Source: Sphingopyxis sp. OAS728 (lineage in GTDB: Bacteria > Pseudomonadota > Alphaproteobacteria > Sphingomonadales > Sphingomonadaceae). From it: 64,000 nucleotides of DNA. Of this stretch, positions 3,367 through 57,065 are shown in pieces; position 1 is the first letter of the stretch; each line of letters begins with the position of its first letter. The stretch is taken from contig NZ_JADBDT010000001.1 in NCBI RefSeq assembly GCF_014873485.1, positions 744,001 to 808,000 on the forward strand, given 5' to 3'. The notes below the pieces were generated by a model. It was not told where the DNA came from. It searched no databases and saw nothing but the letters and a program-made list of their open reading frames with translations. The translations under genes and the position numbers were made by a program.

Positions 3367-4443
3367 TCAAAGCAGCCTGACGAAATCTTCCCATTGGCGC
3401 GACTTGCTGTACCGGTCGGCAATCATGGCCGCGCCCGCATCCGCTATGCTGCGGCGCCGATCCTCGTCGTCGAGCAGGCGGTCCAATTGATCCAGCATAT
3501 CGTCGACATCGCGGTAACTGCTCATCGTCACGCCGTCCTCCATCCCGGGCGGATAGGTCCCGGCATCGGACAACATCAGCGCGCCGCAGCCAAGTGCTTC
3601 CCAGCAACGCATGTTGCCCCGGTCATTGCCCGACATGTCGATCGCGCCGTTGAGAACAATCTTTGCGCCGCCAAAGGCAGCATAAAGCCCGCGCCCGAAC
3701 ACGGGTGGCCGCGCAACTTTCGCGACCGGCCGCGGCAGGCGATGTCCCCGAAGCGGCGGCAGCAGACCCAGCGGCGTGCCCGCCAGCCGCGTCATTCGCG
3801 ACTGCTGCAAATGAATCCGCACGCTGCGGCGGTCCTGCAGCTTCGCCAGTGCCTCGATGACCTGCGCGCGGTTGCGGTGATGGCGGCTATAGGACCCGAC
3901 GAAGACGATATCGACGGCACGATCCGCCTGCCGGTAATCGGCCATCACCGGGTCGAACGCCGGATAGAACCAGGCGGCATTCCATCCGCTTTCGCGATAG
4001 GATTGCAGGATCGATTCAAAATTGCAGACGATAAGGTCATAGGCAGCAAAATCGGCGCCGGGGCTCGGCGCAGCGCGCCAAGCGATCGCCTTTTTCACGC
4101 TCCCCGGCAGCTTGCGAACAAAATCGCTGCCGAACCGTAGCGGGTCCATGTTGTAGAAAATGTCGGCGCCCGAAGCCTCGATCTGCGCCAACAATATGGC
4201 TTCTGGTGTAGCGTCCTTCGCCAACCCGTGGGCATCCGCCCACGCCCGCTGCGATCGCGCGTCGCCTCCGACTGCAAAGCTGCCCCCGGTGCCGTCGAGC
4301 ACCGGTTGAAGCATATGAAGTGCGACAAAGCGATCATCGAGGAGTTCCTGCAGGACATCGCGATAATCCGCCAAACGTGCGCGCGCATGCACCCCGTCCA
4401 TATAGGTGGGGTAGATGTCGAAATTCTGGAAGACCGCAGTCAT
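3367..4443 (-). CDS. Glycosyltransferase, group 1-like with C-terminal donor domain
   Basis: A 358-residue protein with no signal peptide or membrane segment. The C-terminal third contains the stretch MRCWEALGCGALMLSD followed by a conserved glycine-rich loop. This is the pattern of the Glyco_trans_1_2 domain found in CgeB-like and other GT-B glycosyltransferases, where the glutamate binds the nucleotide sugar. The N-terminal half is divergent. It lies 33 bases upstream of the rfbB start and downstream of the Wzy-like gene, so it probably builds part of the repeat unit. The specificity is unknown. Confidence 0.75.
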   Translation of the reverse strand: MTAVFQNFDIYPTYMDGVHARARLADYRDVLQELLDDRFVALHMLQPVLDGTGGSFAVGGDARSQRAWADAHGLAKDATPEAILLAQIEASGADIFYNMDPLRFGSDFVRKLPGSVKKAIAWRAAPSPGADFAAYDLIVCNFESILQSYRESGWNAAWFYPAFDPVMADYRQADRAVDIVFVGSYSRHHRNRAQVIEALAKLQDRRSVRIHLQQSRMTRLAGTPLGLLPPLRGHRLPRPVAKVARPPVFGRGLYAAFGGAKIVLNGAIDMSGNDRGNMRCWEALGCGALMLSDAGTYPPGMEDGVTMSSYRDVDDMLDQLDRLLDDEDRRRSIADAGAAMIADRYSKSRQWEDFVRLL

Positions 4444-4486: not shown

Positions 4487-5893
4487 TCATCTGACCCGGA
4501 CGCCGGGGACAGTGCCGGCAGATTGCGCCTTGAGGCGCGTCGGCGCAGTTATTTTTCCGAATTCCTCGGTAGAGCGATAGAGATAGAGCAACAACGCAGC
4601 CATGCCGCCACCGCCAGTCAGAATGGCCGTGAACAGCGACGCGTCGGCGAGCGAAACCACGAATGGCATCAGAACCGCGCATGCAATGCGGCGATCGATC
4701 TCACCGATAAGCCGCGAGGATATCCAGAGCCAGAGACCCGCCAGAAAAAGGATCAGTGGCACACCGAGGGTACCAAAGCCGGCAATGCCATCCGCAGCAA
4801 TGAAATTCGCGTTATAATTGTTGATTTCGGCGACCGCCGCTGTCGGCGTGACATAGCGGCCAATGACCTGACCGACCGATTCCACCCCATAGGGATATTC
4901 GGAGAAAGGCCGCCCAACGAGCGAATGCGACAGATAGGTGACCGGATAATTCAGAAAAAAGTCGCTGTACACACCGACGAGAACACCCGGGAGCGCCAGA
5001 ATTCGCATGTAAACCAGATCTGAAATATTGCTGAACACTCCTGTGCCAGCCCGGTAGACCGATACGATTGGGCCAAGCACGGCAAAGAACAGGACAGCCG
5101 CATAGATACGGCCGAACATGACCCGGCCGTTGCGGAAGACAAAGAAGACCCCGATCGTGAGCAGCGTCGATCCCAGAACCACCTTACCGGCGAGAGTCGA
5201 ATAAATCAGCAACTGGCCAATGAGGCCGGCGGCAATCAGCACGGGCTGGCGGCGCGTGATGCCGGCAACCAGCAGAAAGGGGTTAACCGCACCGCTGAGC
5301 GTACCCATCACATAGCCCATGAGCGCACCGCCAAGGGTGGTCGCGGCCGCACGCTGCTCATAAACCTGCTCAAGGCCTACAATGTTGAGCGTCTCACCAA
5401 AAATTACGAAAATCCCGACATTCCCGACCCCCCACACGCCCAGAACGCCGGCCCAGAACGTGCGCGGCGCCAGTCTCAATTTTGCAAAGGGCTTCCCATC
5501 GCTCAGCAGAAGAATGAATGCCGCCGCCGAAGACCATATGACGGCCAAAAGAAAGATGAGGTCGCCCATGGGCAAAATGCCCTGTTGCGGCGGGATGATC
5601 ACCGAAGGAATGAAGAGAAGGAAATAGAGCGCCCATTTGGCAAAGCCCACAATTGTCCAGCTATGCATCGGCAAGAACATGCCGAGCAGGGCGGACAGGC
5701 CGATCGTCGCGCCGGTCAGAAACGGCGACGGTGGCTGATACCAGAAGCCCAGATAGCTCCACTGGGTAGATAGCTCGGCATATGTCGTGATAAGAAACCA
5801 AGCATAGATGCCGCCCATCAAAGCCGTCACAAGGTGAAGCGCCGCCTTCGACGCTCCGGCCTTTTCCGTTCGAGCTTGCTCTTGCACCATCAT
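4487..5893 (-). CDS. Polytopic membrane protein, candidate Wzy-type polysaccharide polymerase
   Basis: A 468-residue protein with about ten to twelve hydrophobic segments separated by short loops, and a larger polar loop around residues 315-355 (VTYLSHSLVGRPFSEYP onward). Size, topology and place in a cluster that also encodes Wzx, Wza and Wzc fit a Wzy-type O-antigen or capsule polymerase, a family with very low sequence conservation. No catalytic motif can be claimed. The two consecutive ATG codons at 5893 and 5890 overlap the wbpG stop as ATGA, so translation is probably coupled. A second Wzy_C-type protein lies at 17794-19227. Confidence 0.6.
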   Translation of the reverse strand: MMVQEQARTEKAGASKAALHLVTALMGGIYAWFLITTYAELSTQWSYLGFWYQPPSPFLTGATIGLSALLGMFLPMHSWTIVGFAKWALYFLLFIPSVIIPPQQGILPMGDLIFLLAVIWSSAAAFILLLSDGKPFAKLRLAPRTFWAGVLGVWGVGNVGIFVIFGETLNIVGLEQVYEQRAAATTLGGALMGYVMGTLSGAVNPFLLVAGITRRQPVLIAAGLIGQLLIYSTLAGKVVLGSTLLTIGVFFVFRNGRVMFGRIYAAVLFFAVLGPIVSVYRAGTGVFSNISDLVYMRILALPGVLVGVYSDFFLNYPVTYLSHSLVGRPFSEYPYGVESVGQVIGRYVTPTAAVAEINNYNANFIAADGIAGFGTLGVPLILFLAGLWLWISSRLIGEIDRRIACAVLMPFVVSLADASLFTAILTGGGGMAALLLYLYRSTEEFGKITAPTRLKAQSAGTVPGVRVR

Positions 5894-7026
5894 TTCCTCG
5901 TGATCAGGCGGCGCATTACCGCCCGTCCTTTTAATAATCTGTCCGTCAACGCCTTATCGCTATCGAACAGATTGTGCGAGACAATGGGGGCATCGATCAG
6001 CGCTTTTAACTCGTCGGTCGGCATTCCCAGCTTCTTTGCGACGAAACGCGTGTCGCGTTCTGCTTGCGCCTCGGTCGTGATCGGAACGCGCAATTCCTCC
6101 AGCGCCGCATCGCGTGTCAACTGCCCGGCAACGATCAGCGACGACAGGTGCAGCCGCCGCTTGTCGAAGCGCAGCTTGCGCGGAAGATAGACGTCCTGAT
6201 AGAATTTCGTGAAGCGACTTTCGGAATGCTTCGGGCCATAATCACGCCAGCCATAGACGGCGCGCAATTCTTCCTGCGCCGCTTCCTTGTCGTAATTGGT
6301 GAAGTCGAGCGGCCGATAACGTTTCGGCAGGCCGCGCACCCGCGTCGTCCAGAGATATTCGGCCATCGTCATGATCGGATAGGCGTGAAGCGATTTTTCG
6401 CCATACGCCTTGTGCACCGCGCGCACATGCTTGCCGTCGCTCGAACTCGGTCCGTCGTGCGGAATATGGAGATTTTCCGACGCGAAATTGACCCCAGACA
6501 GGAAAGATCGAACGCCGTGCTTGCGCGCCAGCCGCAACAGCGTCGCGAAAAAGGCATGATCCTGCGGGAAGTCCTGATTGAGCACATTCGCGCGCAGAAA
6601 AGCCCGCTGGACATCGCGGACCTCGTCCCATTCGACCACGCAGGTGACGAGGTCGAGGTCGAGGCTGCGAACAAGCTTTTCGATATTATGGACCGCGGGC
6701 TCGCTGTTCCAGCCAGCATCGACATGCACGGCAAGCAGGCGCAGGTCGTGCTTCGCGGCCATCAGATGCGCAAGATAGGCGCTGTCGACCCCTCCGCTGA
6801 GGCCAACGAGCGCATCATAGGGCTTGCCCCTGCCCTCTTCCTTCAGCGTTGCGACAAGGGATGCCATCCGGCGCCCGCCTTCTTCGCCCGGCCACCATTC
6901 GTGCGGACTGCGGGCGAAGGCATCCTTGCAGCAGTTGCACTGACCGTCAGGGCCGATCTCGACCCCTTCGACATCCTCGGGCATCACACAGACCGTGCAG
7001 ATTCTGGCGTTTGTTCCGGCGATCAT
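5890..7026 (-). CDS. wbpG: N-acetyl sugar amidotransferase, WbpG/PseA type
   Basis: A 378-residue ATP pyrophosphatase-type enzyme. It has zinc-ligand-like cysteines at C10-x2-C13 and C30/C33, and the PP-loop SGGVDS near residue 77. This arrangement is typical of the WbpG/PseA family (N-acetyl sugar amidotransferase). With a HisH/HisF pair, WbpG of Pseudomonas aeruginosa converts an N-acetyl group on a UDP-linked uronic acid into an acetamidino group. Both partners are encoded next to it here (7023-7757 and 8484-9104), which supports the assignment. It overlaps hisF and the Wzy-like gene by 4 bases each. The exact acceptor sugar is inferred from neighbours. Confidence 0.9.
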   Translation of the reverse strand: MIAGTNARICTVCVMPEDVEGVEIGPDGQCNCCKDAFARSPHEWWPGEEGGRRMASLVATLKEEGRGKPYDALVGLSGGVDSAYLAHLMAAKHDLRLLAVHVDAGWNSEPAVHNIEKLVRSLDLDLVTCVVEWDEVRDVQRAFLRANVLNQDFPQDHAFFATLLRLARKHGVRSFLSGVNFASENLHIPHDGPSSSDGKHVRAVHKAYGEKSLHAYPIMTMAEYLWTTRVRGLPKRYRPLDFTNYDKEAAQEELRAVYGWRDYGPKHSESRFTKFYQDVYLPRKLRFDKRRLHLSSLIVAGQLTRDAALEELRVPITTEAQAERDTRFVAKKLGMPTDELKALIDAPIVSHNLFDSDKALTDRLLKGRAVMRRLITRK

Positions 7027-7757
7027 CGGTTCATCGCCTGCTGCCGTGTCTCATAATCGGGATAGGTAATCAGCACCGCGCGCAGTCGCCCGATGAAGGA
7101 AAAGGCGCTTCCTGACGCCGCAGCATCGGCTCCGGCGCCAAGCGCGGCGTCGAGGTGCGAGACCTCGCCCGCGCCGCCCAGCGCGATGACGGGAACCTCA
7201 AGGCTAGGTGCAATCGCCGCGATACCCTCGATATCCATCCCCGTGCGCAATCCGTCGCGGTCGATCGACTGTAGGATGATCTCGCCGACCCCGGCCTTGG
7301 CAAGCCGCGCCGCTTCCTGTTCCAGAGGCTTGCCGGTCGAGGTCGTCCGGCTGGCGCCGTCGACGCGATAGTCGAGGCAGCCGACTAGGGCCTGAACGCC
7401 GAACGCACCCGCTATTTCCCCAATCAGCTGCTCGGACGTTTGCGAACGGAGCACCAGTTTCTCGACACCGTCTGCAACCAGCCGGCGCGCATGCTGGATC
7501 GTCGATATCCCGCCGCCATAGCTGAGCGGCATGAAACACTCGGACGCGAGACTGGCGACGAAATCGAAATCCGGCTCGCGACCATCGGCGCTGGCGTCGA
7601 TGTCGAGCACACAGATTTCGTCGACTTCCTTCTCGTTGAACAGGCGGATGATATTAAAAGGATCACCCACATATGTGCGCTCGCCAAAGCTGACCGTTTT
7701 CACGACCCGCCGCGATCGATCGATCAGCATCACGACAATGAGGCGGGGCAATACCAC
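7023..7757 (-). CDS. hisF: HisF-like cyclase/synthase subunit of sugar amidination
   Basis: A 244-residue (beta-alpha)8 barrel protein of the HisF family, with the phosphate-binding IALGGAGEVSHL and the internal repeat of the barrel. The start is GTG at 7757, giving the family-like VLPRLIVVMLIDRSRRVVKT. An early D (in CVLDIDAS) is kept. In polysaccharide loci such HisF2 proteins channel ammonia from a HisH2 glutaminase to WbpG (established for P. aeruginosa O5 and similar loci). It overlaps wbpG in ATGA fashion. Histidine biosynthesis is unlikely because no other his gene is nearby. Confidence 0.87.
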   Translation of the reverse strand: MVLPRLIVVMLIDRSRRVVKTVSFGERTYVGDPFNIIRLFNEKEVDEICVLDIDASADGREPDFDFVASLASECFMPLSYGGGISTIQHARRLVADGVEKLVLRSQTSEQLIGEIAGAFGVQALVGCLDYRVDGASRTTSTGKPLEQEAARLAKAGVGEIILQSIDRDGLRTGMDIEGIAAIAPSLEVPVIALGGAGEVSHLDAALGAGADAAASGSAFSFIGRLRAVLITYPDYETRQQAMNR

Positions 7758-7792
7758 GTGGAAAATCCGACGTTAGAGAGACGCGCTGCCGC

Positions 7793-8467
7793 TCAGGCGG
7801 CGCGCGGAACGATACGGATGATGTCGGCCGAGACCTCGGCGCGATAATCGGGATCGTCCTCGAAATGCGACAGCAGCGTCGAAAGACGCGGATAGCCGTC
7901 CTGTCCGGTGAAATCCCGGGCGTCGTCGATCAGGATGATATGCCCCTTTACGTTATGATCGAGGACCATCTGCAATTCCGCCGACACCGGTGTGTCGATT
8001 TCGGCCTTGCCGGTAAAACCGCCGCTGTAATGGCCGTCGAGCCAGAAGACCGCAGGACGGTCGATCGTCTTCAGCACTTCGGGCAGGACGACCGCGCTAT
8101 CGCCCTTGAGGCAGCTGATGTTCTTCTTCCGCTTCAGCATGTCGACCGCACGACGGTGAATTTCATCATCGATCTCGATCGTTATGCAGTCTACGCCGGT
8201 CTCGGCGATATGTTCGACCATGCTGCCGAGATATGTGCCGGTTTCGACGAAATATTTCGCACCGCTGGTTTCGACATAGTGGCGGACCACCGCCATCTTC
8301 ACGACGTTCGGCGCCGGTGACGGGCAACCGCGCGAAACCCATGTGCCGATATCCCGGCGAACGACGGCTCGCAAATTGCGCACGATAGTCAACAAACCGG
8401 CCCGTTGGACTGCGTCGCGAACCGGAAATCGCAGATCGTTTTGATTATTCACGGCATTTTCCTGCAT
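7793..8467 (-). CDS. Class I SAM-dependent methyltransferase-like protein
   Basis: A 224-residue soluble protein. Residues around 68-80 read KYFVETGTYLGSM, a motif I-like glycine loop, followed by the acidic ITIEIDDE. A D-G-H-Y-S-G block and ILIDDARDFTG follow. These features fit a Rossmann-type methyltransferase subgroup found in polysaccharide loci. The ATG at 8467 is chosen because the longer frame to 8878 is only the shadow of hisH. It sits between the hisH-like and hisF-like genes, 16 and 35 bases away. Methylation of the amidino sugar is an attractive but unproven role. It could also be a non-catalytic relative. Confidence 0.65.
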   Translation of the reverse strand: MQENAVNNQNDLRFPVRDAVQRAGLLTIVRNLRAVVRRDIGTWVSRGCPSPAPNVVKMAVVRHYVETSGAKYFVETGTYLGSMVEHIAETGVDCITIEIDDEIHRRAVDMLKRKKNISCLKGDSAVVLPEVLKTIDRPAVFWLDGHYSGGFTGKAEIDTPVSAELQMVLDHNVKGHIILIDDARDFTGQDGYPRLSTLLSHFEDDPDYRAEVSADIIRIVPRAA

Positions 8468-8483
8468 TACAAAAAACTTTCTT

Positions 8484-9104
8484 TCAGACTGGACCGCGCT
8501 CGAGCCGCGCGAAATCGGCGAGCAATCGCATGCCAAAACGGTGGCTTTTTTCGGGATGGAATTGAACTCCATGCACCGCTCCGTGCGCCACCGCAATTGC
8601 CTTTTGACCGTCATAGTCGACGACCGCCGCGACGTCGGCGTCGCTGTCGCAGACCATGTGATAGCTATGCGCGAAGTAAAAACGCTCTGAAGCTGCGCTG
8701 GACGGCGCCATCCATGTATCACGCACATATACGACGTCGCGCCAGCCCATGTTGGGCACCTTGACGCCCGGGAGAGACGGCACGATCCGTCTGACATCCG
8801 CGGCGATAAGGCCAAGCCCTTCGGCACCGCCTTCTTCGCTCGTTCGCGCCAGCAACTGCATGCCCAGACAGACGCCAAGCAAGACAGCCCCGCGGTCGAC
8901 CGCCGTCCGGATCGCGTCGGACAGCCCCCCGGCGTTCAGCACTGCCATGGCGTGCCCGAATGCTCCGACACCGGGAAGAACGAGATGGCGGGCATCGGCA
9001 ATGACGTCGGGGTCGCCGCTCAGATGCGTATCGGCGCCGACATGATCGAACATATTGGCGAGCGACGCGATATTTCCGACGCCATAATTGACGATCGTGA
9101 TCAT
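8484..9104 (-). CDS. hisH: HisH-like glutamine amidotransferase subunit
   Basis: A 206-residue class I glutaminase. The nucleophile sits in GVCLGMQLL near residue 79, and the catalytic His and Glu in VQFHPEKS near residues 181-183. The N-terminus MITIVNYGVGNI and the oxyanion-strand sequence LPGVGAFGHAM are diagnostic of HisH. It would hydrolyse glutamine and pass ammonia through the HisF-like partner to WbpG. The ATG at 9104 overlaps the flippase stop (ATGA). Its position in the sugar cluster argues for sugar amidination rather than histidine synthesis. Confidence 0.9.
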   Translation of the reverse strand: MITIVNYGVGNIASLANMFDHVGADTHLSGDPDVIADARHLVLPGVGAFGHAMAVLNAGGLSDAIRTAVDRGAVLLGVCLGMQLLARTSEEGGAEGLGLIAADVRRIVPSLPGVKVPNMGWRDVVYVRDTWMAPSSAASERFYFAHSYHMVCDSDADVAAVVDYDGQKAIAVAHGAVHGVQFHPEKSHRFGMRLLADFARLERGPV

Positions 9105-10366
9105 GATGCAGGCCTCGCTTCCGCGCCTTCGACATGCGGTCTCGGCAACGCATGATAACATAGGAAAAGCTGCACGAGCGAAAACAGGCACAGCAATATG
9201 CTGTGGACCACGACAATCTTCTCGACCGCCCAGTCGGCGCCCGGCGCGTAGAGCCAGAGCAGCGCCATCGCTGCAAACCGGCTGATGTCCCAGCCAAGCT
9301 GGGTAATTTGCCGCCCCATGATCGTAAGGGTCATGTTAATGCCCCCCGACACCAGCCCGAGGAAATAGGCAGGCGCCAAAATCTGGGCGAATTTGGCCGC
9401 CTCGTTCCACCCCGGCCCGAATACCAACTGGAAAAGCATCGGGGCAAAAATCACACAGGCGATTGTCGGAAACAATGCCGCGCCGGCAAGGAGCAAGGAC
9501 AGGCGCCGAAAACTGCGACGTGCGGTGCCGGTTCCCAGTCGCAGATCCTCCGCCAGATTTCCCATATGAACCTGCGACACCGCGCCGACTATCAGCGCGA
9601 CCGGCAGACCCACGGCCCGATCGACCAGCCCGAACTGTCCTGCGGTCGACGCATCGAAGCTGGCGTATATGAACAGCGGCGTCATGATGCTGCCCGCCGT
9701 ACTTAACACCGCCCCTGGCAGCGAAATCAGCGACAGGTCACTGAACTGCCGCGCAACCGTGCGAAGATCCGACCAGCTCGTTCCGAAAATACCGCGGAGG
9801 GCATGAAGTCGGCCCCGCGCGAGCCAATATCCATTGAGCAGACGACCGGCGAGGTCGGCCAGGATCAGGCTGCTGCCGATCGGTGCGACAATCGCGAGAC
9901 CCGCGCTGGTTCCCGCGTTGGTCAGCCCCTGCGCGATCTTGGCGCTGGCGATAGTACCGTACGCCGCGTCGCGGGTCCCGAGATAGGAGAATATCTGCGC
10001 CCACCCGACAGCAAGCGCCGACAGGGAAAGCCACCACCAGCCAAAACCAAGATCGGCGAGAAAACGGGGCCACCCCATCGCTAGCGCGGCAAGCAGGATG
10101 CCGGTGAAGACGACCGTCGTGACCAATATCAGTAATCCGCAAAGTGCGATGACATACGTCAACTCGGGGCCGTCGCTTGCGCGCAGTATCGCGATTTCAT
10201 AGCGCAGCATCACAACGACGATGACCAGCATCATGATCGACTGGAATGCCTGAAAATGCCCGAAAACCTCAGGCCCGAACGAGCGCGACAGGAGCGGTAG
10301 GATCAGAAAGCCGATCAACTGCGCCAGCGCGCTCCCCTTCATTATGGTCAGGACCGAGCGGAGCAT
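9101..10366 (-). CDS. Wzx-type polysaccharide flippase (MOP/PST family)
   Basis: A 421-residue protein with about twelve hydrophobic helices and the typical MOP-family N-terminus (MKGSALAQLIGFLILPLLSR, then FGPEVFGHFQAF). Such proteins move undecaprenyl-linked repeat units across the inner membrane. The ATG at 10366 was chosen. A second Met eight residues later, just before the conserved SALAQ stretch, is also possible. Only 3 bases separate it from the upstream glycosyltransferase, and it overlaps hisH by 4 bases. With the Wzy candidate, Wza and Wzc it completes a Wzx/Wzy-type export route. Confidence 0.88.
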   Translation of the reverse strand: MLRSVLTIMKGSALAQLIGFLILPLLSRSFGPEVFGHFQAFQSIMMLVIVVVMLRYEIAILRASDGPELTYVIALCGLLILVTTVVFTGILLAALAMGWPRFLADLGFGWWWLSLSALAVGWAQIFSYLGTRDAAYGTIASAKIAQGLTNAGTSAGLAIVAPIGSSLILADLAGRLLNGYWLARGRLHALRGIFGTSWSDLRTVARQFSDLSLISLPGAVLSTAGSIMTPLFIYASFDASTAGQFGLVDRAVGLPVALIVGAVSQVHMGNLAEDLRLGTGTARRSFRRLSLLLAGAALFPTIACVIFAPMLFQLVFGPGWNEAAKFAQILAPAYFLGLVSGGINMTLTIMGRQITQLGWDISRFAAMALLWLYAPGADWAVEKIVVVHSILLCLFSLVQLFLCYHALPRPHVEGAEARPAS

Positions 10367-10369
10367 CGA

Positions 10370-11272
10370 TCAGTGGCCTAGTCGCTCTCGCACATGCGCG
10401 ACGAAAGAGGCCGGAATATCGGCACCAAAATCCGATTCGATGTCGCGCGTCGGCTCTGCATCGATCGGGACGATCGACTGCCCGAGGTGCGCGATACGCG
10501 GGACCGAGCCCAAAAAGGCGCCCCACAGGCTGAAGCCCGACCCTGATGCGATCAGCGCCGCGCCCTGGCCCATGTGCAGCAGGTCTGTAACCGATTGTTG
10601 CCTCGGCGCCCGCTCGAGACCTGGCCGCGCCAGCAGCGCGGCGAGTTCTTCATCGGAGCCGTCCGAGAACAGGACCGCCGGCAAATCCTCGCCCAAGGCG
10701 CGGCGAAGCGCATCGAGGCGGTCGCCATACCAGTCGAGTGGAAGGCGGGTGTTGGTGGATTCTTCGGAAACCGCATTCCCCGCCACCGGCTTGGCAAAGT
10801 CGCCCAACCGGACATGGATCGCGACAAAGGGCGTGACCGACGGTGCGGGATGGTAGCGCGGGCGGGTCATTGCCAGCAGCTCACGGCGCAGGAAAGGCCC
10901 ATGACCGACGACCTGCGCGAAGGATTTCTTTTCATTGTCCTTCAGCGCGTTGTGGAAGCGCAGGACCTGTCTTTCCGTGGCGACAGGCTTAGCAGGCCAT
11001 TCGGTACCGACGTCGACCTTTTTCGCGTTTGCCAACGCAAACAGGCGCCGCAGTCCGCCGATCGCCGTGCCGCGATTGAACAACAGAAAGTAATTCCGCT
11101 TGTCGCGCTCGCGGCGAAGATAGGGGCCGACGCGCAGCTTGAGCCAGAAAGGCGCGAGCATCGTGGCGTCATTCTGTTCGCACCACAAGCGGCAACGCGC
11201 CCAGGCCAGCAGCCCGTGCGTCAGACCATATCGCCCGAGGACGGGGATCGCGTGGACACGCCGGTCACTCAT
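10370..11272 (-). CDS. GT11-like glycosyltransferase (alpha-1,2-fucosyltransferase-like)
   Basis: A 300-residue protein with no signal peptide. The central stretch VAIHVRLGDFAKP matches the H-x-R-x-G-D motif that binds the GDP-sugar in GT11 alpha-1,2-fucosyltransferases. A later block (QSVTDLLHMGQGAALIASGSGFSLWGAFLG) resembles the second donor-site region of that family. The ATG at 11272 overlaps the aminotransferase stop as ATGA; the longer frame to 11425 is a shadow. If it uses GDP-fucose, the gmd and fcl genes must lie outside the window, although manA/manC-type genes for GDP-mannose are at 23.7-25.6 kb. Confidence 0.7.
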   Translation of the reverse strand: MSDRRVHAIPVLGRYGLTHGLLAWARCRLWCEQNDATMLAPFWLKLRVGPYLRRERDKRNYFLLFNRGTAIGGLRRLFALANAKKVDVGTEWPAKPVATERQVLRFHNALKDNEKKSFAQVVGHGPFLRRELLAMTRPRYHPAPSVTPFVAIHVRLGDFAKPVAGNAVSEESTNTRLPLDWYGDRLDALRRALGEDLPAVLFSDGSDEELAALLARPGLERAPRQQSVTDLLHMGQGAALIASGSGFSLWGAFLGSVPRIAHLGQSIVPIDAEPTRDIESDFGADIPASFVAHVRERLGH

Positions 11273-12381
11273 GCAACGGCGGCCGCCACCTCGTGCAAAG
11301 CGGCCGCGACCTGATCCTGCTGAGCCACGGTTAGTTCGGCATAGATCGGAAGCGAAAGGATGCGGCCTTGCAGCCGGTGCGCGACGGGGAAGTCCTCCGG
11401 ACGGTGCCCCATATGCGCGTAGCAAGGAAGAAAGGGCAGCGCCCGCTTGTAGTTAACGACGGTGGGAACACCGCGATCCTTCAGCGCAACGGCAAGGCCG
11501 TCGCGGTCGTGGGCCTCGATGACATAGAGGTGATAGACATGTTCGCGCCCGGCGACTTCGGTGGGCCTGACGATGCCCGGAACGTCTGCGAGCAATTTGT
11601 CGTACCGCTTTGCCACTGCACGGCGGCGTTCGGTCCAGCTAGCCAGATGCGGCAACTTGACGTTGAGGATGGCGGCCTGGATTCCGTCGAGCCGCGAGTT
11701 GATGCCCTCCATTTCATGATCGCCCTTCACCAGCCCGCCATGACGCGCAAAGCAGGCCATGTGGCGCGCCAGCGCGGCGTCGTTGGTCGTGATCGCCCCG
11801 GCATCGCCCATCGCGCCGAGATTCTTGCCCGGGTAGAAGGACCAGGTCGCGATCTGGCCGAAGCTGCCGGCCTTGCGGCCGTCGATCGTGGCCAGGTGCG
11901 CCTGCGCGCAATCCTCGATCACCCACAGACCGTGTTTTTCGGCAATTGCCATAATCGCAGGCATGTCGGCCATCTGGCCATAAAGGTGCACCGGAATCAT
12001 GCCGACGGTGCGGCTCGTGATCTTCTCCGCTATTTTCGACACATCGATCGTTGATGTGACCGGATCGATATCGACGAAAATCGGTTTTGCGCCGTGCTGC
12101 CCGATCGTTTCGGACGTCGATATCCATGACTGCGCGGTCGTGATCACCTCATCGCCGGGTTTGATGCCGAGCGCCTTCATCGCGATATAGATCGCGTCGG
12201 TTCCGTTCGCGCACGAAACGGTATGGTTTGCCCCCATCAACGCCGAATATTCGCTTTCGAACAGTTCGACATCGGGACCGCGGACAAAGCTGCTCGCCGC
12301 GATCACCCGCGCGATGGCGCCGTCGATCTCGTCCTTGAGCGACAGATATTGCGCATGGAGGTCAACGAAAGGAATAGACAT
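11269..12381 (-). CDS. wbpE: DegT/DnrJ/EryC1/StrS aminotransferase, WbpE type
   Basis: A 370-residue PLP-dependent sugar aminotransferase. The Schiff-base lysine is K186 in SFYPGKNLGAMGD, D157 in the EDCAQ motif contacts the PLP nitrogen, and the SCANGTDA phosphate loop is near 56-63. Sequence order closely resembles WbpE, which transaminates the 3-keto form of UDP-N-acetylglucosaminuronate using glutamate. It is followed by a 4-base overlap with the GT11-like gene and preceded, 19 bases away, by the wbpD-like acetyltransferase. The wbpB-D-E order is the same as in Pseudomonas. Confidence 0.9.
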   Translation of the reverse strand: MSIPFVDLHAQYLSLKDEIDGAIARVIAASSFVRGPDVELFESEYSALMGANHTVSCANGTDAIYIAMKALGIKPGDEVITTAQSWISTSETIGQHGAKPIFVDIDPVTSTIDVSKIAEKITSRTVGMIPVHLYGQMADMPAIMAIAEKHGLWVIEDCAQAHLATIDGRKAGSFGQIATWSFYPGKNLGAMGDAGAITTNDAALARHMACFARHGGLVKGDHEMEGINSRLDGIQAAILNVKLPHLASWTERRRAVAKRYDKLLADVPGIVRPTEVAGREHVYHLYVIEAHDRDGLAVALKDRGVPTVVNYKRALPFLPCYAHMGHRPEDFPVAHRLQGRILSLPIYAELTVAQQDQVAAALHEVAAAVA

Positions 12382-12400
12382 GTTTTCTCCAGTCGGCACT

Positions 12401-12871
12401 TTAGCTGTGGTGGCGCAGGAGGCGCGCCGGATTGCCCGCGTAGGTACCGGGCTGGACGATAGATTTTGTGACGACCGATCCAGCGCCGATCACGACATCG
12501 TCGCAAATCGTCACAGGCATGATCGTCGCGTTCGAACCGATCGACACGCGATCGCCGATCGAGGTGGTTTCCCATTTGCTCTTGTCGCCCCTCGCGGGGC
12601 CTCCGCTTGCGAAACGGTCGTTTACAAACATCACGCCATGACCGACGAAACAGTCGGCGCCGATCTTGACCAGTTCGCAAATGAAGCTGTGGCTTTGAAC
12701 CCGGGTTCGGGCGCCAATCGTAACACCCTTCTGGATCTCGACAAAGGGACCAATGAAAACATCGTCGCCGACGGTACAGCCATAGACGTTCGACGGCTCG
12801 ACGACCGTGACATTGGCACCGAAGATCACATTGACGATGCCAACGGCCTTCCGATCGACGCTATCGGTCAT
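12401..12871 (-). CDS. wbpD: Left-handed beta-helix N-acetyltransferase, WbpD-like
   Basis: A 156-residue protein made largely of hexapeptide repeats (for example VGDDVFIGPFVEI, VTIGARTRVQ, VVIGAGSVV), ending in the usual PGTYAGNPARLL. This is the acetyl-CoA-dependent hexapeptide transferase fold. Placed between wbpB- and wbpE-like genes, it should N-acetylate the 3-amino group of UDP-2-acetamido-3-amino-2,3-dideoxyglucuronate. The ATG at 12871 is preferred over a TTG two codons earlier. It is shorter than P. aeruginosa WbpD because it lacks that protein's C-terminal extension. Confidence 0.87.
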   Translation of the reverse strand: MTDSVDRKAVGIVNVIFGANVTVVEPSNVYGCTVGDDVFIGPFVEIQKGVTIGARTRVQSHSFICELVKIGADCFVGHGVMFVNDRFASGGPARGDKSKWETTSIGDRVSIGSNATIMPVTICDDVVIGAGSVVTKSIVQPGTYAGNPARLLRHHS

Positions 12872-12889
12872 TCTCAAACTCCACCCGTC

Positions 12890-13948
12890 TCAGCCGCGGC
12901 CGAGCTTGGCCACCTTGGGATTGAACCGAAGATCGACGCGCCGTCCGGTTTCGATCGATTCATAGATGGCGGAGATCAGTTCGAGGCTTCGGCGTCCCTG
13001 GATCCCGTCGACCAGTTGGGGGCCGCCATTGCGGATAACATCGACGATATGTTCGTAATAGGCCTGATGCCCAAACCCGTACACACTGGGGGGATTGACC
13101 GAATATTTCTCGATCACGTCGCCGTCTTCAGGGCCGGCGTCGAGGAAATTCCAGGTCTCGAGCTTGTTCACCGCGAAGCCCCCGATCACGACCGTACCGC
13201 CCTCGCCAAGGATAGAAATCGACCCCTCGAGATCCTTGGGACGCGTCCCGCCGGTCGCCTCTATGATGCCGAGCGCGCCGTTGGCGAAGGTCAGGATCAC
13301 CGCAGCCGTGTCTTCGGCCTCGATGTCGACAAGGCGCGTCGCGCTCATAGCCGACACCGACACAACATCGCCCATCATCCATTCGAGCAGATCGACATGG
13401 TGACTGGCCTGATTGGTCAGGACGCCGCCATCGAGCGCCCAGGTGCCGCGCCAGGCATCCTGATCATAATAGGCCTGCGGACGGCACCAGCGCACGCGCA
13501 CCGTTCCCATGACAAGCTTGCCGAACCTGCCAGCTTTCAGCGCTTCACGTAGCTTGACCACGGGAACGTTGAAACGGTTCTGCTTGACCACAAACAACTT
13601 CACCCCGGCTTCATCGCAAGCCGCGATCATATGATCGGCGTCCGTCAGGGTCAGCGCCATCGGCTTTTCGACGATGATATGTTTACCATAGGGCGCCAAT
13701 TCGATGACATTCGACGCATGATTGCCGCTCTCGGTCAGCACCACGAACGCATCGATGTCCGCTTCACGCGCCATTTTGTGCATGTCCGTGAACCAAGGCA
13801 CGCCGAATTGCTCGCCGATCGCCCGCGCCTTTGCCTCGACAATGTCGCAGACCGCCGCGAGCTCGGCATTCTCGATCTGCTGATTGCCGAGCAATTCCGA
13901 ATGCCGCTTTGCGATCCGACCGCAACCAACCAACGCAAATTTAATCAT
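12890..13948 (-). CDS. wbpB: Gfo/Idh/MocA oxidoreductase, WbpB-like UDP-N-acetylglucosaminuronate 3-dehydrogenase
   Basis: A 352-residue NAD-dependent oxidoreductase. The N-terminal Rossmann motif is GCGRIAKRH at residues 8-16, and the family hallmark EKP is at 94-96 (HIIVEKPMALT). A conserved H-x3-L motif follows in the C-terminal domain (SHHVDLLEW). In the WbpB/WlbA pathway this enzyme oxidises C3 of the UDP-linked N-acetylglucosaminuronate before transamination by WbpE. The ATG at 13948 gives MIKFALVGCG. It heads the sugar-nucleotide block and is separated from the tyrosine autokinase by 129 bases. Confidence 0.86.
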   Translation of the reverse strand: MIKFALVGCGRIAKRHSELLGNQQIENAELAAVCDIVEAKARAIGEQFGVPWFTDMHKMAREADIDAFVVLTESGNHASNVIELAPYGKHIIVEKPMALTLTDADHMIAACDEAGVKLFVVKQNRFNVPVVKLREALKAGRFGKLVMGTVRVRWCRPQAYYDQDAWRGTWALDGGVLTNQASHHVDLLEWMMGDVVSVSAMSATRLVDIEAEDTAAVILTFANGALGIIEATGGTRPKDLEGSISILGEGGTVVIGGFAVNKLETWNFLDAGPEDGDVIEKYSVNPPSVYGFGHQAYYEHIVDVIRNGGPQLVDGIQGRRSLELISAIYESIETGRRVDLRFNPKVAKLGRG

Positions 13949-21012: not shown

Positions 21013-21282
21013 GACCCGATGATAATCCCTATCCTGCCGGTCCGATCCCGAGCAGACGTCACAAAAGGCGCCGGCCCATAGCAATCGCGGCCCGCGGTTG
21101 CCACACTTTCCGCGCCCTTCCTGCAGGTCCGGCCTTGCAGAGGCATGAACGGCGCTGAATCGCCGTGACCGACGCGCTATGCATAGTTAAAGCTATTACA
21201 ACAGTTTCGCGCTATTGCGCGGCCGATGCTGGCCAATTTCGCGACAGGCCGGCAAACGAACCCATTTGCGAGCGAGACCGAC

Positions 21283-22404
21283 GTGCCGTCCAAGATCATA
21301 ACCGTATTCGGCACCCGCCCCGAGGCGATCAAAATGTTCCCCGTCGTTCACGCGCTGCGTGCGCAACCCAACATCGACGCGCGGCTCTGTGTCACCGCCC
21401 AGCATCGCGAAATGCTCGATCAGGTCCTCGATATCGCACAGCTTGTCCCCGATATCGATCTGGACGTAATGACGCCGAACCAGTCGCTTGACGCGCTGCT
21501 CGCGCGTCTGGTCACGGGCCTTGGCGAGGCCTTCGATGCCGAAAAGCCGGACCGCGTTCTTGTCCACGGCGACACACTGACGACGATGGCCGCGACGCTC
21601 GCCGCCTATTTTCGCAAGATCCCGGTCGGACATGTCGAGGCGGGTTTGCGCAGCGGCAATATCTATCACCCCTGGCCCGAAGAGGTGAATCGAAAGGTCA
21701 CCGGCGTCGTCGCCGATCTGCATTTCGCGCCGACCGAGACCGCCGCGGCCGCACTGCGCGCCGAAAATGTGTCGGCAAACCATATTCACGTCACGGGAAA
21801 CACGGTGATCGACGCCCTGCTGGCGACCCAGGCGCGGATCGGCGAGGAGCCGGCGCTCGCCGCCGGTCTCGATCCACTGCTGGATCGCTTCACGGGCAAG
21901 CGCCTAATCGCGGTCACTTCGCACCGGCGTGAAAATTTCGGCGACGGGATGAAAGCCATAGCCGATGCCATCGCCGGCATTAGTGCGCGTCCCGACGTCG
22001 CGGTGATCTTTCCCGTCCATCCCAACCCGCATGTGCGCAGCGCGATGGAGCCCATTCTCGGCGGCCTTTCCAATGTCGCCCTGATCGATCCGCTCGATTA
22101 TCCCCATTTCGTCCGCCTGCTCGGCGCGAGCAGCCTTGTCCTTACCGACAGCGGCGGGGTGCAGGAAGAAGCGCCTTCACTGGGCAAGCCCGTACTGGTG
22201 ATGCGCGAGACGACCGAGCGCCCCGAAGGCATCGCGGCGGGCACCGCGCGGCTTGTCGGAACCGATAAAAATCGCATCGTTTCAGAAATTTTCAGCCTTT
22301 TGGACGATGAAGGCGCCTATGAGGCCATGGCCCGCGCCCACAATCCGTTCGGCGACGGCAAGGCGGCGGAAAGAATTGCGGAGATTATTGCGCGTGCCCA
22401 TTGA
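21283..22404 (+). CDS. wecB: UDP-N-acetylglucosamine 2-epimerase (non-hydrolysing), WecB
   Basis: A 373-residue GT-B fold enzyme interconverting UDP-GlcNAc and UDP-ManNAc. Diagnostic blocks are TVFGTRPEAIKM at the N-terminus, TAQHREMLDQVL, VHGDT, GHVEAGLRSGN, HRRENFG and TDSGGVQEEAPSLGKP, matching WecB closely over the whole length. The GTG at 21283 places the start as in E. coli WecB. An ATG at 21226 would add 19 residues without family support, so the start is uncertain. It opens a plus-strand operon divergent from the export cluster and overlaps wecC by 11 bases. A WbpI-like role on UDP-GlcNAc3NAcA is possible. Confidence 0.93.
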   Translation: MPSKIITVFGTRPEAIKMFPVVHALRAQPNIDARLCVTAQHREMLDQVLDIAQLVPDIDLDVMTPNQSLDALLARLVTGLGEAFDAEKPDRVLVHGDTLTTMAATLAAYFRKIPVGHVEAGLRSGNIYHPWPEEVNRKVTGVVADLHFAPTETAAAALRAENVSANHIHVTGNTVIDALLATQARIGEEPALAAGLDPLLDRFTGKRLIAVTSHRRENFGDGMKAIADAIAGISARPDVAVIFPVHPNPHVRSAMEPILGGLSNVALIDPLDYPHFVRLLGASSLVLTDSGGVQEEAPSLGKPVLVMRETTERPEGIAAGTARLVGTDKNRIVSEIFSLLDDEGAYEAMARAHNPFGDGKAAERIAEIIARAH

Positions 22405-23689
22405 TAGCGAACAGAAAGTCACGGTCCTCGGGCTTGGTTATATCGGCCTGCCGACCGCAGCGCTCATCGCGCGTTCGGGCAACCGCGTGACCGGCGTCGA
22501 CGTCAGTCAGCATGTCGTCGACACCGTCAACAACGGCAAGGTCCATATCGAGGAAGTCGATCTCGACGGCCTCGTCCAGGGCGTCGTTGCGCGCGGCAAC
22601 CTCGTTGCATCGACCGAGGTCGCGCCTGCCGACGTCTTTGTCATCGCGGTGCCGACCCCGCATGACGACGGGCATCGCCCCGACATCGCCTATGTCCTCT
22701 CGGCCGCGCGGGCCATCGCGCCAAAGCTTCAGGCGGGCAACCTCGTCATCCTCGAATCGACCTCGCCCGTTGGCACGACCGAAAAGGTCGCCGCGTTGCT
22801 CGCCGAACTCCGCCCCGACCTCAAGGTTCCGGGCGCCTGTATCGGCGCCGCTGACATCTTCGTCGCCTATTGCCCCGAACGCGTGCTGCCCGGCCGCATC
22901 CTCGTCGAACTCGTCGACAACGACCGCTGCATCGGCGGCATCACGCCGCGTTGCGCCCGCCGCGCGATGACCTTCTACCGTCAGTTCGTGCGCGGCGCCT
23001 GTGTCACCACTTCGGCGCGCGCCGCCGAAATGGTGAAGCTCGTCGAGAACAGCTACCGCGACGTCAACATCGCCTTTGCCAACGAGTTGTCGATGATGGC
23101 CGAACATATGGGCGTCGACGTGTGGGAGGTGATCCGCCTCGCCAACCTCCACCCGCGCGTCAACATCCTCCAGCCGGGGCCCGGCGTCGGTGGCCATTGC
23201 ATCGCGGTCGATCCGTGGTTCCTCGTCCATGGCGCCCCCGATCACAGCCGCCTGATCCGCACCGCACGCGAGGTCAATCTGGCCAAGACCGCGCATGTCA
23301 TCGGCGCCGCCGAAATGCTCGTCTCGCAACATCCGCAGGCCCGCGTCGCGTGCCTCGGCCTCGCCTTCAAGCCGAATATCGACGATTTCCGCGAAAGCCC
23401 GGCGGTTGAAATCGCCGCCGCACTCGCGCGCCGCTTCGGCAAACAGATCGAGATCGTCGAACCTTATGCGCGCGGCCTGCCGATGGAGTTTGCCGGAACG
23501 GGCGCTTCGTTGACCGACCTCGATACCGCCCTTGCGTCGTGCGACCTGCTCATCGTTCTGGTCGATCACGACCTCTTCAAATCGATCCCGCTCGAAGAGC
23601 GTGGCGGTAAAATCGTCTACGACACCCGTGGCCTCTGGCTCGACCAACCAAAGGCGGGAGAAGGCGGCCACTTTAATCGGGCCGCCTGA
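22394..23689 (+). CDS. wecC: UDP-N-acetyl-D-mannosamine dehydrogenase, WecC
   Basis: A 431-residue NAD-dependent UDP-sugar 6-dehydrogenase oxidising UDP-ManNAc to UDP-ManNAcA. It has the Rossmann motif GLGYIGLPTA, the SPVGTTEK and CPERVLPG blocks, and the catalytic Cys269 in GPGVGGHCIAVDPWF. Resemblance to E. coli WecC is strong (RLANLHPRVNILQPGPG), and stronger than to Pseudomonas WbpA. The start is GTG at 22394 with a GGAG 11 bases upstream, inside the end of wecB. The product may enter the polymer directly. A WbpA enzyme for UDP-GlcNAcA is not seen in the window. Confidence 0.94.
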   Translation: MPIDSEQKVTVLGLGYIGLPTAALIARSGNRVTGVDVSQHVVDTVNNGKVHIEEVDLDGLVQGVVARGNLVASTEVAPADVFVIAVPTPHDDGHRPDIAYVLSAARAIAPKLQAGNLVILESTSPVGTTEKVAALLAELRPDLKVPGACIGAADIFVAYCPERVLPGRILVELVDNDRCIGGITPRCARRAMTFYRQFVRGACVTTSARAAEMVKLVENSYRDVNIAFANELSMMAEHMGVDVWEVIRLANLHPRVNILQPGPGVGGHCIAVDPWFLVHGAPDHSRLIRTAREVNLAKTAHVIGAAEMLVSQHPQARVACLGLAFKPNIDDFRESPAVEIAAALARRFGKQIEIVEPYARGLPMEFAGTGASLTDLDTALASCDLLIVLVDHDLFKSIPLEERGGKIVYDTRGLWLDQPKAGEGGHFNRAA

Positions 23690-55439: not shown

Positions 55440-56123
55440 TTACCGAATCTCCGTCGAGAAGAGTCGTTTGAAATCGCCGAGCGGTATGCCCTCGGCCCGG
55501 AAACGAAGTTTTCGGCTGATTTTCTGAAAATTGTTCAGCCACGGCAGTCGCGTGCCGATGCCTTTCCTCACACGGTCCCTCGTCAAATGGATTGCGACGC
55601 TTTTAACCGCGTGCCCGGGACCGAGTGCCGCGGAGAAATCGACAGGCAGCACGCGCCGGATCGAGCTCGGATCCGCCGTATCGCCAAAGACCGCGATGAT
55701 CGGATATTCGGCCGGAGCAATTTCAGCCGACTCCAGAACATTCTTTCGGCGGGCAATTCTTCGGGCGCTCTCGACGACATCGTTCCGAAAAGCTGGATCG
55801 AGTGCCAGCATCGACATTCCCGCAAGGTCGCCATGAATATTTCCGGTCCTCAGGAGAGCAAAGAGCGTCACGCCGTTCGGCAAATCGACCATCAGTGCTT
55901 CACCGCGTACATCCCATGAATGATACCTTCCTTCGGGATTTATTCCGAGCCGGTAACGCGCGCGCACTTCGTACACCGACGTGCCGGCCCAGGGTCCGGA
56001 CGGCGTATCGACTTCCACATTCATGCGAAAACGATAAGCGGAACCGGTGCCGATATAGCGAAGCGAAAGGACCGGGAGGATCACGGCAAGTGCTAGAAGA
56101 TTCAATAAGCTGCGCCAGCGCAT
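55440..56123 (-). CDS. Exported or membrane-anchored protein of unknown function
   Basis: A 227-residue protein I cannot assign. The N-terminus MRWRSLLNLLALAVILPVLSLRYIG is a signal or anchor. The rest is predicted soluble with a beta-rich section (RFRMNVEVDTPSGPWAGTSVYEVRARYRLG) and a basic C-terminal half. The ATG at 56123 is preferred because AAGGAG precedes it by ten bases; the ATG at 56132 is too close to that site. It is convergent with pth. Confidence 0.65.
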   Translation of the reverse strand: MRWRSLLNLLALAVILPVLSLRYIGTGSAYRFRMNVEVDTPSGPWAGTSVYEVRARYRLGINPEGRYHSWDVRGEALMVDLPNGVTLFALLRTGNIHGDLAGMSMLALDPAFRNDVVESARRIARRKNVLESAEIAPAEYPIIAVFGDTADPSSIRRVLPVDFSAALGPGHAVKSVAIHLTRDRVRKGIGTRLPWLNNFQKISRKLRFRAEGIPLGDFKRLFSTEIR

Positions 56124-56224
56124 TGCAATCATTCTCCTTCTGCGACGTGCTGATCAACGGACGCCACAAGCTTTGGATCAACCACTTCCTTGCGCACGAA
56201 TAATCCGGTTGTATGCGATGAAGT

Positions 56225-56293
56225 TTAACGTCCGCCCCCCCCTTTTGTGGCCATTCGCTCAATGACCGGAAGCGACCGATAGTGGACGTTAGC
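56225..56293. repeat. Inverted-repeat element left of the lower-GC gene
   Basis: Outer inverted arms AACGTCC (56227-56233) and GGACGTT (56284-56290) enclose a shorter inner TCGCT/AGCGA pair. Related-looking sequence (AACGTC-x-GC-x-CCCC) recurs at 56974-57005 on the other side of the 56333-56974 gene. The element resembles small intergenic repeats of sphingomonads, by memory only. Confidence 0.45.
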
Positions 56294-56332
56294 ATTCACG
56301 GGATACTAACCCCGAAAGAGCATCAGTAATGA

Positions 56333-56974
56333 ATGCATTTTCGATACGATGACATAATCGCACAGATTTCAGGCCGCCCCACTTGGTGGTTCAACGGTGT
56401 GCCTCGCTATAGCGCGTTCGATCCAGCTATGGTCGGATCATTTGAAATTGCGTTGGTTCACACTGAATGCCGGGAATGTCGAACTCGCTATGACGTTGCG
56501 ATTGGCTCGCAACCTCCATCCTTCGCTTCCCTTCGGGACGTAATCTCTTTCGAAAACCGTCTTAATGTGGGTGACCCACCATTTGCGTGCGCCGAAATGG
56601 GCGCGCGCTGCAGCGGGGGTTATTGCATGACATCACTTGAAATGCGCGTGCTTGAGTTTTGGACGAAAGATGGACGAATCTCAAACGCGTGGCGCCGCGA
56701 TACTCATTGGGAACGCCCCCTCATCCACGCAAACTGGGATTCCAACGCTCAAGATGACGAAGGTGTTTGGGGCCGCATTCTGGATTCAGATCGGATTGAC
56801 GAATGGTCGCAAGCGCGTCGCGACGGTGACTTTGCTACTATGGTTGCGATCCTCAAAGAGTTCGATTGCGAGCGCCCCTTGGAAGTGGCGCATATGATTG
56901 ACCTCGAACGCCGTTATCAACTTTTGAGGGACAAAACCTCGGCGATAAGAAATGATCGCTTCGGCGAAAATTGA
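56333..56974 (+). CDS. Unknown protein with CxxC and Cys-rich segments, lower GC than neighbours
   Basis: A 213-residue cytoplasmic protein without signal peptide or membrane segment. A possible zinc site is formed by CRECRTRYD (C-x2-C near residue 44) and a second cluster CAEMGARCSGGYC near 85-97. WTKDGRISNAWRRDTHWERP follows and the C-terminus is helical. I do not recognise a family. Base composition looks visibly less GC-rich than the flanking genes and codon use is less biased, and repeat-like sequences lie on both sides. This suggests acquisition by transfer. Confidence 0.6.
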   Translation: MHFRYDDIIAQISGRPTWWFNGVPRYSAFDPAMVGSFEIALVHTECRECRTRYDVAIGSQPPSFASLRDVISFENRLNVGDPPFACAEMGARCSGGYCMTSLEMRVLEFWTKDGRISNAWRRDTHWERPLIHANWDSNAQDDEGVWGRILDSDRIDEWSQARRDGDFATMVAILKEFDCERPLEVAHMIDLERRYQLLRDKTSAIRNDRFGEN

Positions 56975-57065
56975 ACGTCAGCTCCCCACCCCAAAACAGA
57001 CATTCAAACGTCAATTTGGCGGGGCGACCGAAGTAAGGCATGATGGGTCCGAAAGGAGCCGTCTC

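Follow-up and report, generated by a model that had tools for sequence, protein, structure and literature searches.

We have analyzed a stretch of 64,000 nucleotides (hereafter the window, positions 744,001-808,000 of contig C1) from the genome of Sphingopyxis sp. OAS728 (G000), a single contig of 4,919,217 bases rated 100% complete, which carries within window positions 5,890-13,948 the genes for WbpB-, WbpD-, WbpE-, HisH-, HisF- and WbpG-like proteins. A previous sequence-only reading had placed this set on one strand, and indeed the six genes are intact open reading frames of the minus strand with high family scores; all gene coordinates are given as window positions after correction of the starts. 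From 5' to 3' along the minus strand, a Wzc-type kinase, the first gene of the series (16,300-14,078), is followed by a WbpB-like protein of the Gfo/Idh/MocA family, a putative sugar 3-dehydrogenase (12,890-13,948), a WbpD-like hexapeptide N-acetyltransferase of short form (156 amino acids; 12,401-12,871), a WbpE-like sugar 3-aminotransferase of the DegT/DnrJ/EryC1/StrS family (11,269-12,381), a probable transferase, a Wzx-like flippase, a HisH2-like glutaminase subunit (8,484-9,104), a methyltransferase-like gene, the ammonia-channel subunit HisF2 of AglZ/HisF2/WbuZ type (7,023-7,757), a WbpG/WbuX-type N-acetyl sugar amidotransferase (NASAT; 5,890-7,026), a probable Wzy polymerase, a glycosyltransferase (3,367-4,443), RmlB, RmlA and another glycosyltransferase. 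The six named genes are interrupted by the probable transferase, the flippase gene and the small methyltransferase-like gene, and do not form one continuous block. The sugar made by this conserved enzyme set is very probably a positively charged amidine, and the set differs from the Pseudomonas pathway in that it seems to travel without the enzyme converting the sugar to an acid.

The amidino genes were assigned from family models and catalytic motifs. The WbpG-like protein scores 208.5 bits with the WbuX/NASAT model TIGR03573, above its cut-off of 203.2, and presents the PP-loop LSGGVDS together with the tetracysteine residues C10, C13, G28-x-C30 and C33; a PP-loop SGGxDS and a tetracysteine motif CxxC...[GN]xCxxC are described for the Legionella amidotransferase in PMC10607449. 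A profile of 21 WbpG-like sequences matches the solved Legionella enzyme 8wex over 83 positions, its sole other solved match being a GMP synthase subunit (E 8e-4), and the best named relatives of the protein are from Sphingomonas. For HisF2, the acetamidino model NF038364 is the best among the models listed, with 257.3 bits versus 137.6 with the true hisF model; the score lies under the curated cut-off of 310, as does that of its relative in the Rhizobium lentis locus described below (294). The HisH protein retains the Cys-His-Glu triad and scores 190 bits with TIGR01855, above the cut-off, and HisH2 and HisH are separated neither by any model listed nor by identity. Amidino-sugar synthesis by the cluster, which is the broader of our claims, is one that we hold with high confidence.

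The WbpG-like protein was searched against 397 genomes of the family, of which 27, the present one included, have a match at 1e-60, and the neighbourhoods of the other 26 were fetched; Rhizobium lentis and Bradyrhizobium sp. LMTR 3 came from a scan of the contigs of named genomes (at least 15 loci). The order B-D-E ... hisH2-hisF2-wbpG ... glycosyltransferase, to which we refer as the module, is common to five genomes, namely the present one, G122, G514, R. lentis and Bradyrhizobium sp. LMTR 3. The other four are alphaproteobacterial and the identity to them, gene by gene, is 45-85%, with 67-76% for the short acetyltransferase and 45-52% for the glycosyltransferase at 3,367-4,443, a candidate for transfer of the amidino sugar; a recognisably similar Wzx is limited to G122 and G514, and none of the four loci gave a Wzy match. 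On an Azospirillum plasmid the same six kinds of enzyme (43-68% identity) are spread over ~18 kb among nonulosonate genes. Nine of 30 plasmid records were examined, those left out being two further Lawsonia records and 19 under 40% identity, and from a second set of eight records Limimaricola and Spirosoma were left out. At the level of the order, the WbuX family occurs in 34 of 297 genomes, in 30 of them above the cut-off.

In the known pathway, as outlined in PMC10622841, WbpA oxidises C6 of UDP-N-acetylglucosamine (UDP-GlcNAc) and WbpB oxidises C3, after which WbpE aminates, WbpD acetylates and WbpI epimerises C2. By analogy with Pseudomonas aeruginosa O5, the sequence-only reading had expected UDP-2-acetamido-3-acetamidino-mannuronate (UDP-ManNAc3NAmA) as the product, while noting that no WbpA-type UDP-GlcNAc dehydrogenase is seen in the window. 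The latter remark is correct, the dehydrogenase located there (~22.4-23.7 kb), which that reading left unmentioned, being of WecC type, and the search for wbpA in the rest of the genome, which had been proposed as a check, found none among the PF03721 genes. The whole single-contig genome has three PF03721 dehydrogenases above the cut-off and one match below it; according to the motifs of the catalytic region, the three comprise one of WecC type (CPERVLPG, GGHCIAVDP) and two of Ugd type, and neither the WbpA type (SPEREDPG, GGHCIPIDP), which is the dehydrogenase whose gene immediately precedes that of the oxidoreductase at canonical loci, nor the TviB type (SPERINPG, GGHCIGVDP) was found among them. 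The gene at 22.4 kb was considered as a WbpA candidate and rejected on the basis of its motifs and of its score with the WecC model NF008286 (566.4 bits, cut-off 459): it is wecC, coding for a UDP-N-acetylmannosamine (UDP-ManNAc) 6-dehydrogenase (plus strand, open reading frame 22,253-23,689, true start near 22.4 kb), and we judge it to lie outside the module. The same holds for wecB (plus strand, 21,226-22,404), a UDP-GlcNAc 2-epimerase which had been suggested as the epimerase of the pathway and is the sole PF02350 gene of the genome. It scores 479.5 bits with TIGR00236 (cut-off 210) and 440 bits to the solved chains 1f6d and 1vgv, which we take to be E. coli WecB, versus ~160 bits to solved UDP-2,3-diacetamido-2,3-dideoxy-glucuronic acid 2-epimerases of WbpI type, and its candidacy as WbpI was rejected on these scores; no WbpI-type 2-epimerase was found in the genome. 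Of the predicted amidino uronic acid, the amidino part thus stands, on the HisF2 and amidotransferase families, the catalytic motifs and the presence of his genes elsewhere, and the uronic acid part is not supported, as the genome has no WbpA or TviB type; nor is the O5 product itself, which needs WbpI in addition.

The absence extends in part to the other module genomes. From the dehydrogenase lists of whole genomes, no WbpA/TviB type was found in three of the five (G000, G122 and G543), and a PF02350 epimerase was not found in either of the draft rhizobial genomes G542 and G543, which have the full module; a manno product is therefore unlikely for the module as such. A further genome, G547 (100% complete, 20 contigs), has genes for a WbpB-like (67% identity), a WbpE-like (50%) and an acetyltransferase protein side by side and lacks PF03721 matches of every type across its genome, and therefore no dehydrogenase of that family can make a uronate there. 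As no amidotransferase was found within the 40 kb read around these genes, G547 is evidence for the oxidoreductase and not for the whole module.

The WbpB-like protein scores 316 bits with the solved chain 3q2k, presumably the Bordetella WlbA, and the WbpE-like protein scores 366 bits with the DegT aminotransferase family, its best solved match being 7b0d. In a tree of 26 oxidoreductases (P. aeruginosa WbpB is not in it, and no chain named WbpB is among the solved chains at 1e-15), the window protein falls near the clade of 3q2k and 3q2i, which we take to be the solved WlbA enzymes, and outside it, with a split of 100/100. A 100/100 branch, 2.45 changes per column long, separates this clade of nine rows, of which two are the solved chains, presumably the WlbA enzymes of Bordetella pertussis and Chromobacterium violaceum, and the other seven have known neighbours. 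The gene immediately upstream of the oxidoreductase is of WbpA/TviB type in 7/7 WlbA-clade loci versus 0/12 window-type loci, the latter being those with known neighbours whose oxidoreductase is 60-100% identical to that of the window. The tree also holds rows that enter neither count: G572 (52% identity, very long branch, a Ugd-like gene 5 kb off and no adjacent dehydrogenase), G664, G649, G855 and G919 (38-40% identity), and the two solved rows, which have no neighbourhood. The linkage has a Fisher p of 2e-5 with kinship ignored; on the tree it corresponds to a single change and therefore amounts to one event, not twelve. The forks among the window-type rows are open and the tree does not settle whether they are a single clade; several of their distinctive residues are common to the third, 38-40% identical group, and therefore WlbA may be the derived form. 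In three further WlbA-like plasmid loci, outside the tree, a nucleotide sugar dehydrogenase is directly upstream in two, and in the third, from Lawsonia, it lies 2.6 kb downstream in the same run.

We lean, by a narrow preference, to the view that the conserved module makes an amidino sugar without a uronate, destined for a polysaccharide made by the Wzx/Wzy route. The WbpB-like enzyme would oxidise C3 of UDP-GlcNAc itself, and not of UDP-N-acetylglucosaminuronic acid (UDP-GlcNAcA), the WbpE-like enzyme would aminate C3 and the WbpD-like enzyme would acetylate the resulting amine. HisH2 would then release ammonia from glutamine and HisF2 would conduct it, and the WbpG-like enzyme would exchange the acetamido oxygen for nitrogen, in a reaction that uses ATP via the PP-loop, to give the amidine. 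The predicted product is UDP-2-acetamido-3-acetamidino-2,3-dideoxy-glucose, a cationic sugar with no carboxylate, whose transfer is probably carried out by the glycosyltransferase at 3,367-4,443; the substrate, C3 as the amidinated position, the stereochemistry and the role of each glycosyltransferase are what we infer. A small hint toward direct oxidation of UDP-GlcNAc may be seen in the archaeal UDP-GlcNAc 3-dehydrogenase model NF040723, with which two module oxidoreductases score 110 and 128 bits versus 90 for one WlbA-like protein. The more specific proposal, that sphingomonads and rhizobia have an unrecognised pathway leading from UDP-GlcNAc to this product, a permanently cationic building block, without a uronic stage, by means of a WlbA relative outside the WlbA clade and an amidotransferase clade of its own, is put forward tentatively, at somewhat less than even confidence.

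A number of observations weigh against a product without uronate. All oxidoreductase scores with NF040723 are far under its cut-off of 450, and the closest solved relatives of the WbpB-like protein by sequence are presumably WlbA, whose pathway runs through UDP-GlcNAcA. The window-type oxidoreductases carry arginine instead of the asparagine, phenylalanine and tyrosine of WlbA at positions 153, 155 and 238 of the window protein, and these extra arginines (R153, R155, R238), identified by comparing type-specific residues, could bind a carboxylate. A WbpA/TviB-type gene is present in two of the five module genomes, G514, as a TviB type that lies 3.3 kb upstream and is separated from wbpB by gmd and fcl, and G542, on another contig; it is also present in G417, G601, G816 and G582, genomes with a window-type oxidoreductase. 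In G122, wbpB is immediately preceded by a gene for a Ugd-type dehydrogenase, the acetyltransferase of G547 is 69% identical to one in a canonical WbpA locus, and the G542 and G543 drafts have no stated completeness. The extra arginines and the WbpA/TviB genes of some module genomes are the reason why we place the non-uronate reading near one half and the amidino sugar as such much higher, at the level given above. The alternative that survives best, which we nevertheless consider unlikely, is an amidino uronic acid (GlcNAc3NAmA or ManNAc3NAmA) for which C6 of UDP-GlcNAc is oxidised by the WecC or a Ugd of this genome. The arginines and the Ugd gene of G122 are in its favour, as is the fact that one WecC and two Ugd-type genes are at hand; however, the CPERVLPG and GGHC motifs of the window WecC agree with the signature residues of UDP-ManNAc dehydrogenases reported in PMC4794789, in line with its NF008286 score, no window-type locus has a WbpA/TviB type directly upstream, and G547 has the oxidoreductase without any PF03721 gene.

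In a tree of 38 amidotransferases from the fetched loci, P. aeruginosa sequences not included, the five module amidotransferases form one clade (100/100) and ten linked to FnlABC form a separate one (96/93); two rows linked to WbpA/WlbA fall outside both, and those linked to NeuB are not a single clade. The FnlABC group was counted without G410, G151 and G304, on account of distant or mixed neighbours, and the module group without G417; in G374, FnlABC and a WlbA set are both near the amidotransferase. The amidotransferase clade thus tracks the substrate neighbours, which suggests that the module enzyme is specialised. Another possibility, rather improbable in our judgement, is that two residues are involved, B, D and E providing a 2,3-diacetamido sugar and the amidotransferase acting on another N-acetyl sugar, e.g. 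a 6-deoxy sugar derived through WbpM. Of the 38 amidotransferases, 13 do have an FnlA-like gene less than 9 kb away, the left flank holds WbpM-like and PHPT genes 4-7 kb from the window, and in G547, G601 and G816 the oxidoreductase type occurs with no amidotransferase found nearby. However, the amidotransferase trio accompanies B, D and E in one and the same order at all five module loci, its clade is 100/100, and none of the five gave an FnlA/FnlC match within 9 kb of its amidotransferase. Elsewhere, trios of amidotransferase, HisH and HisF2 lie beside FnlA/FnlC in loci L147 and L151 and in the neighbourhoods of G113, G322, G374, G298, G385 and G492, which suggests that L-FucNAm is a common sphingomonad sugar. 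In G374 and on a plasmid of S. hankookensis (L150), the region or plasmid with the trio also holds a canonical dehydrogenase-WlbA set, in a gene run of its own.

It is very improbable that the order is reversed, WecB and WecC making UDP-ManNAcA whose C3 is then oxidised by the WbpB-like enzyme on the way to ManNAc3NAmA. The wecB-wecC pair is 7 kb off in the window and, in G122, 2 kb upstream of wbpB with the Ugd gene in between; yet the epimerase was not found in G542 and G543, both with the whole module, no WecC type is among the dehydrogenases found in G543, and among 23 other neighbourhoods of the family, all lacking both the module and its type of oxidoreductase, 12 contain a WecC-type gene. 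Being this frequent without the module, the WecC type does not co-travel with it, and wecB-wecC is therefore best seen as serving something else. Finally, a second histidine set unrelated to amidines, for which one may invoke the TIGR01855 score of HisH and its 43% identity to the other HisH of this genome (a closeness matched by some HisH proteins linked to amidotransferases), was rejected as scarcely credible, given the separate locus at 3,383.2-3,385.4 kb with one HisH and two strong HisF/HisA-family genes (hisH, hisA, hisF), the model preference of HisF2 and the amidotransferase partner in all five module loci. With the histidine locus located there and the HisF2/NASAT affinity of the cluster, the hisH/hisF pair is therefore not more closely affiliated to true histidine biosynthesis, the finding that would have spoken against an amidino sugar.

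Between wbpE and hisH2, a probable glycosyltransferase without Pfam match (minus strand, 10,370-11,272) was assigned by eye and has a 52% relative in one module locus, G514, and the Wzx-type flippase (minus strand, 9,101-10,366) has a weak Polysacc_synt match, below the cut-off. The small methyltransferase-like protein between hisH2 and hisF2 (minus strand, 7,793-8,467; Methyltransf_24 E 0.0017, below the cut-off) is encoded in the window locus only and was not found in the other four module loci. The probable Wzy polymerase (minus strand, 4,487-5,893) is assigned from hydrophobicity and position, without family match. On the plus strand, 21.2-25.6 kb holds wecB, wecC and genes resembling, by eye, those for mannose-6-phosphate isomerase and mannose-1-phosphate guanylyltransferase. 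The cluster continues to the left of the window with genes for a WecE-type aminotransferase, a WcaI-like transferase, an SDR protein, PHPT, a WbpM-like dehydratase, Gmd and Fcl, with a short Ugd lying beyond these; the same-strand Gmd, Fcl, WbpM-like, PHPT and WecE-type genes lie at 735,355-743,416 of C1. This left flank suggests that GDP-fucose, a 4-amino-4,6-dideoxy sugar and a 6-deoxy-HexNAc enter the same polysaccharide. The GC content is 52.5% at 56,001-57,000, versus 60-66% in the flanking kilobases.

Amidines on the bacterial surface have been described in a small number of O-antigens and flagellar sugars, and the model pathway, that of Pseudomonas, has an acid at C6. If our reading is true, polysaccharides of soil- and plant-associated bacteria would contain a net cationic sugar, and the oxidoreductase and amidotransferase are two testable enzymes whose choice of substrate might be deduced from their clades and neighbouring genes. 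That sphingomonad polysaccharide clusters contain amidino genes is already on record, since cluster B of Sphingomonas sp. LM7 has been published: WbuX, HisF2, HisH, an MviM-type dehydrogenase, a pyridoxal phosphate (PLP) aminotransferase and an acetyltransferase are listed within a polysaccharide cluster recovered in a screen for colony morphology, where transposon mutants alter colony form, and the sections available do not discuss an amidino sugar for it (PMC11340318). Compared through this published gene list, cluster B differs from the window in having a nucleotide sugar dehydrogenase close by. We have found no description of the WbpA-less module as a distinct conserved unit in the open-access literature, nor, in the same literature, a publication on the archaeal precedent. 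With the UDP-ManNAc3NAmA pathway of P. aeruginosa O5, whose sequences are outside our trees, the module shares the 3-dehydrogenase, the 3-aminotransferase, the N-acetyltransferase and the amidotransferase with its HisH/HisF partners, whereas the WbpA and WbpI types are lacking in the present genome.

A WlbA-type locus on a Massilia litorea plasmid (L145, 9,998-19,849) brings together the same enzyme classes as a full WbpA-B-D-E type set, with dehydrogenase, Gfo/Idh oxidoreductase (44-48% identical), acyltransferase and aminotransferase, along with HisH, HisF2 and amidotransferase. Unlike in the window, its 6-dehydrogenase is directly upstream of the oxidoreductase, its amidotransferase belongs to another clade, and the short acetyltransferase of the window has no match there at 1e-10; as no WecB/WbpI-like gene was found in the 35 kb read of this plasmid, its product may keep the gluco form. 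The FucNAm type (WbuXYZ with FnlABC), common in the family, shares the HisH-HisF2-amidotransferase trio and differs in its substrate genes, FnlABC instead of B, D and E, and in its separate amidotransferase clade. In the loci read here such trios stand beside FnlABC, NeuB or WbpA-WlbA genes, which calls for caution in annotating WbpG-HisH-HisF trios by default as ManNAc3NAmA synthesis. Bradyrhizobium is said to have gnnA, and in strain LMTR 3 only the module gene matches the window oxidoreductase at 1e-40 or better. GnnA and GnnB of lipid A convert UDP-GlcNAc to UDP-GlcNAc3N, as described in PMC7663294 and PMC5644692, and it is to this pair, with GnnA likened by description, and to the archaeal model NF040723 that the direct 3-oxidation and amination of UDP-GlcNAc proposed for the module would correspond.

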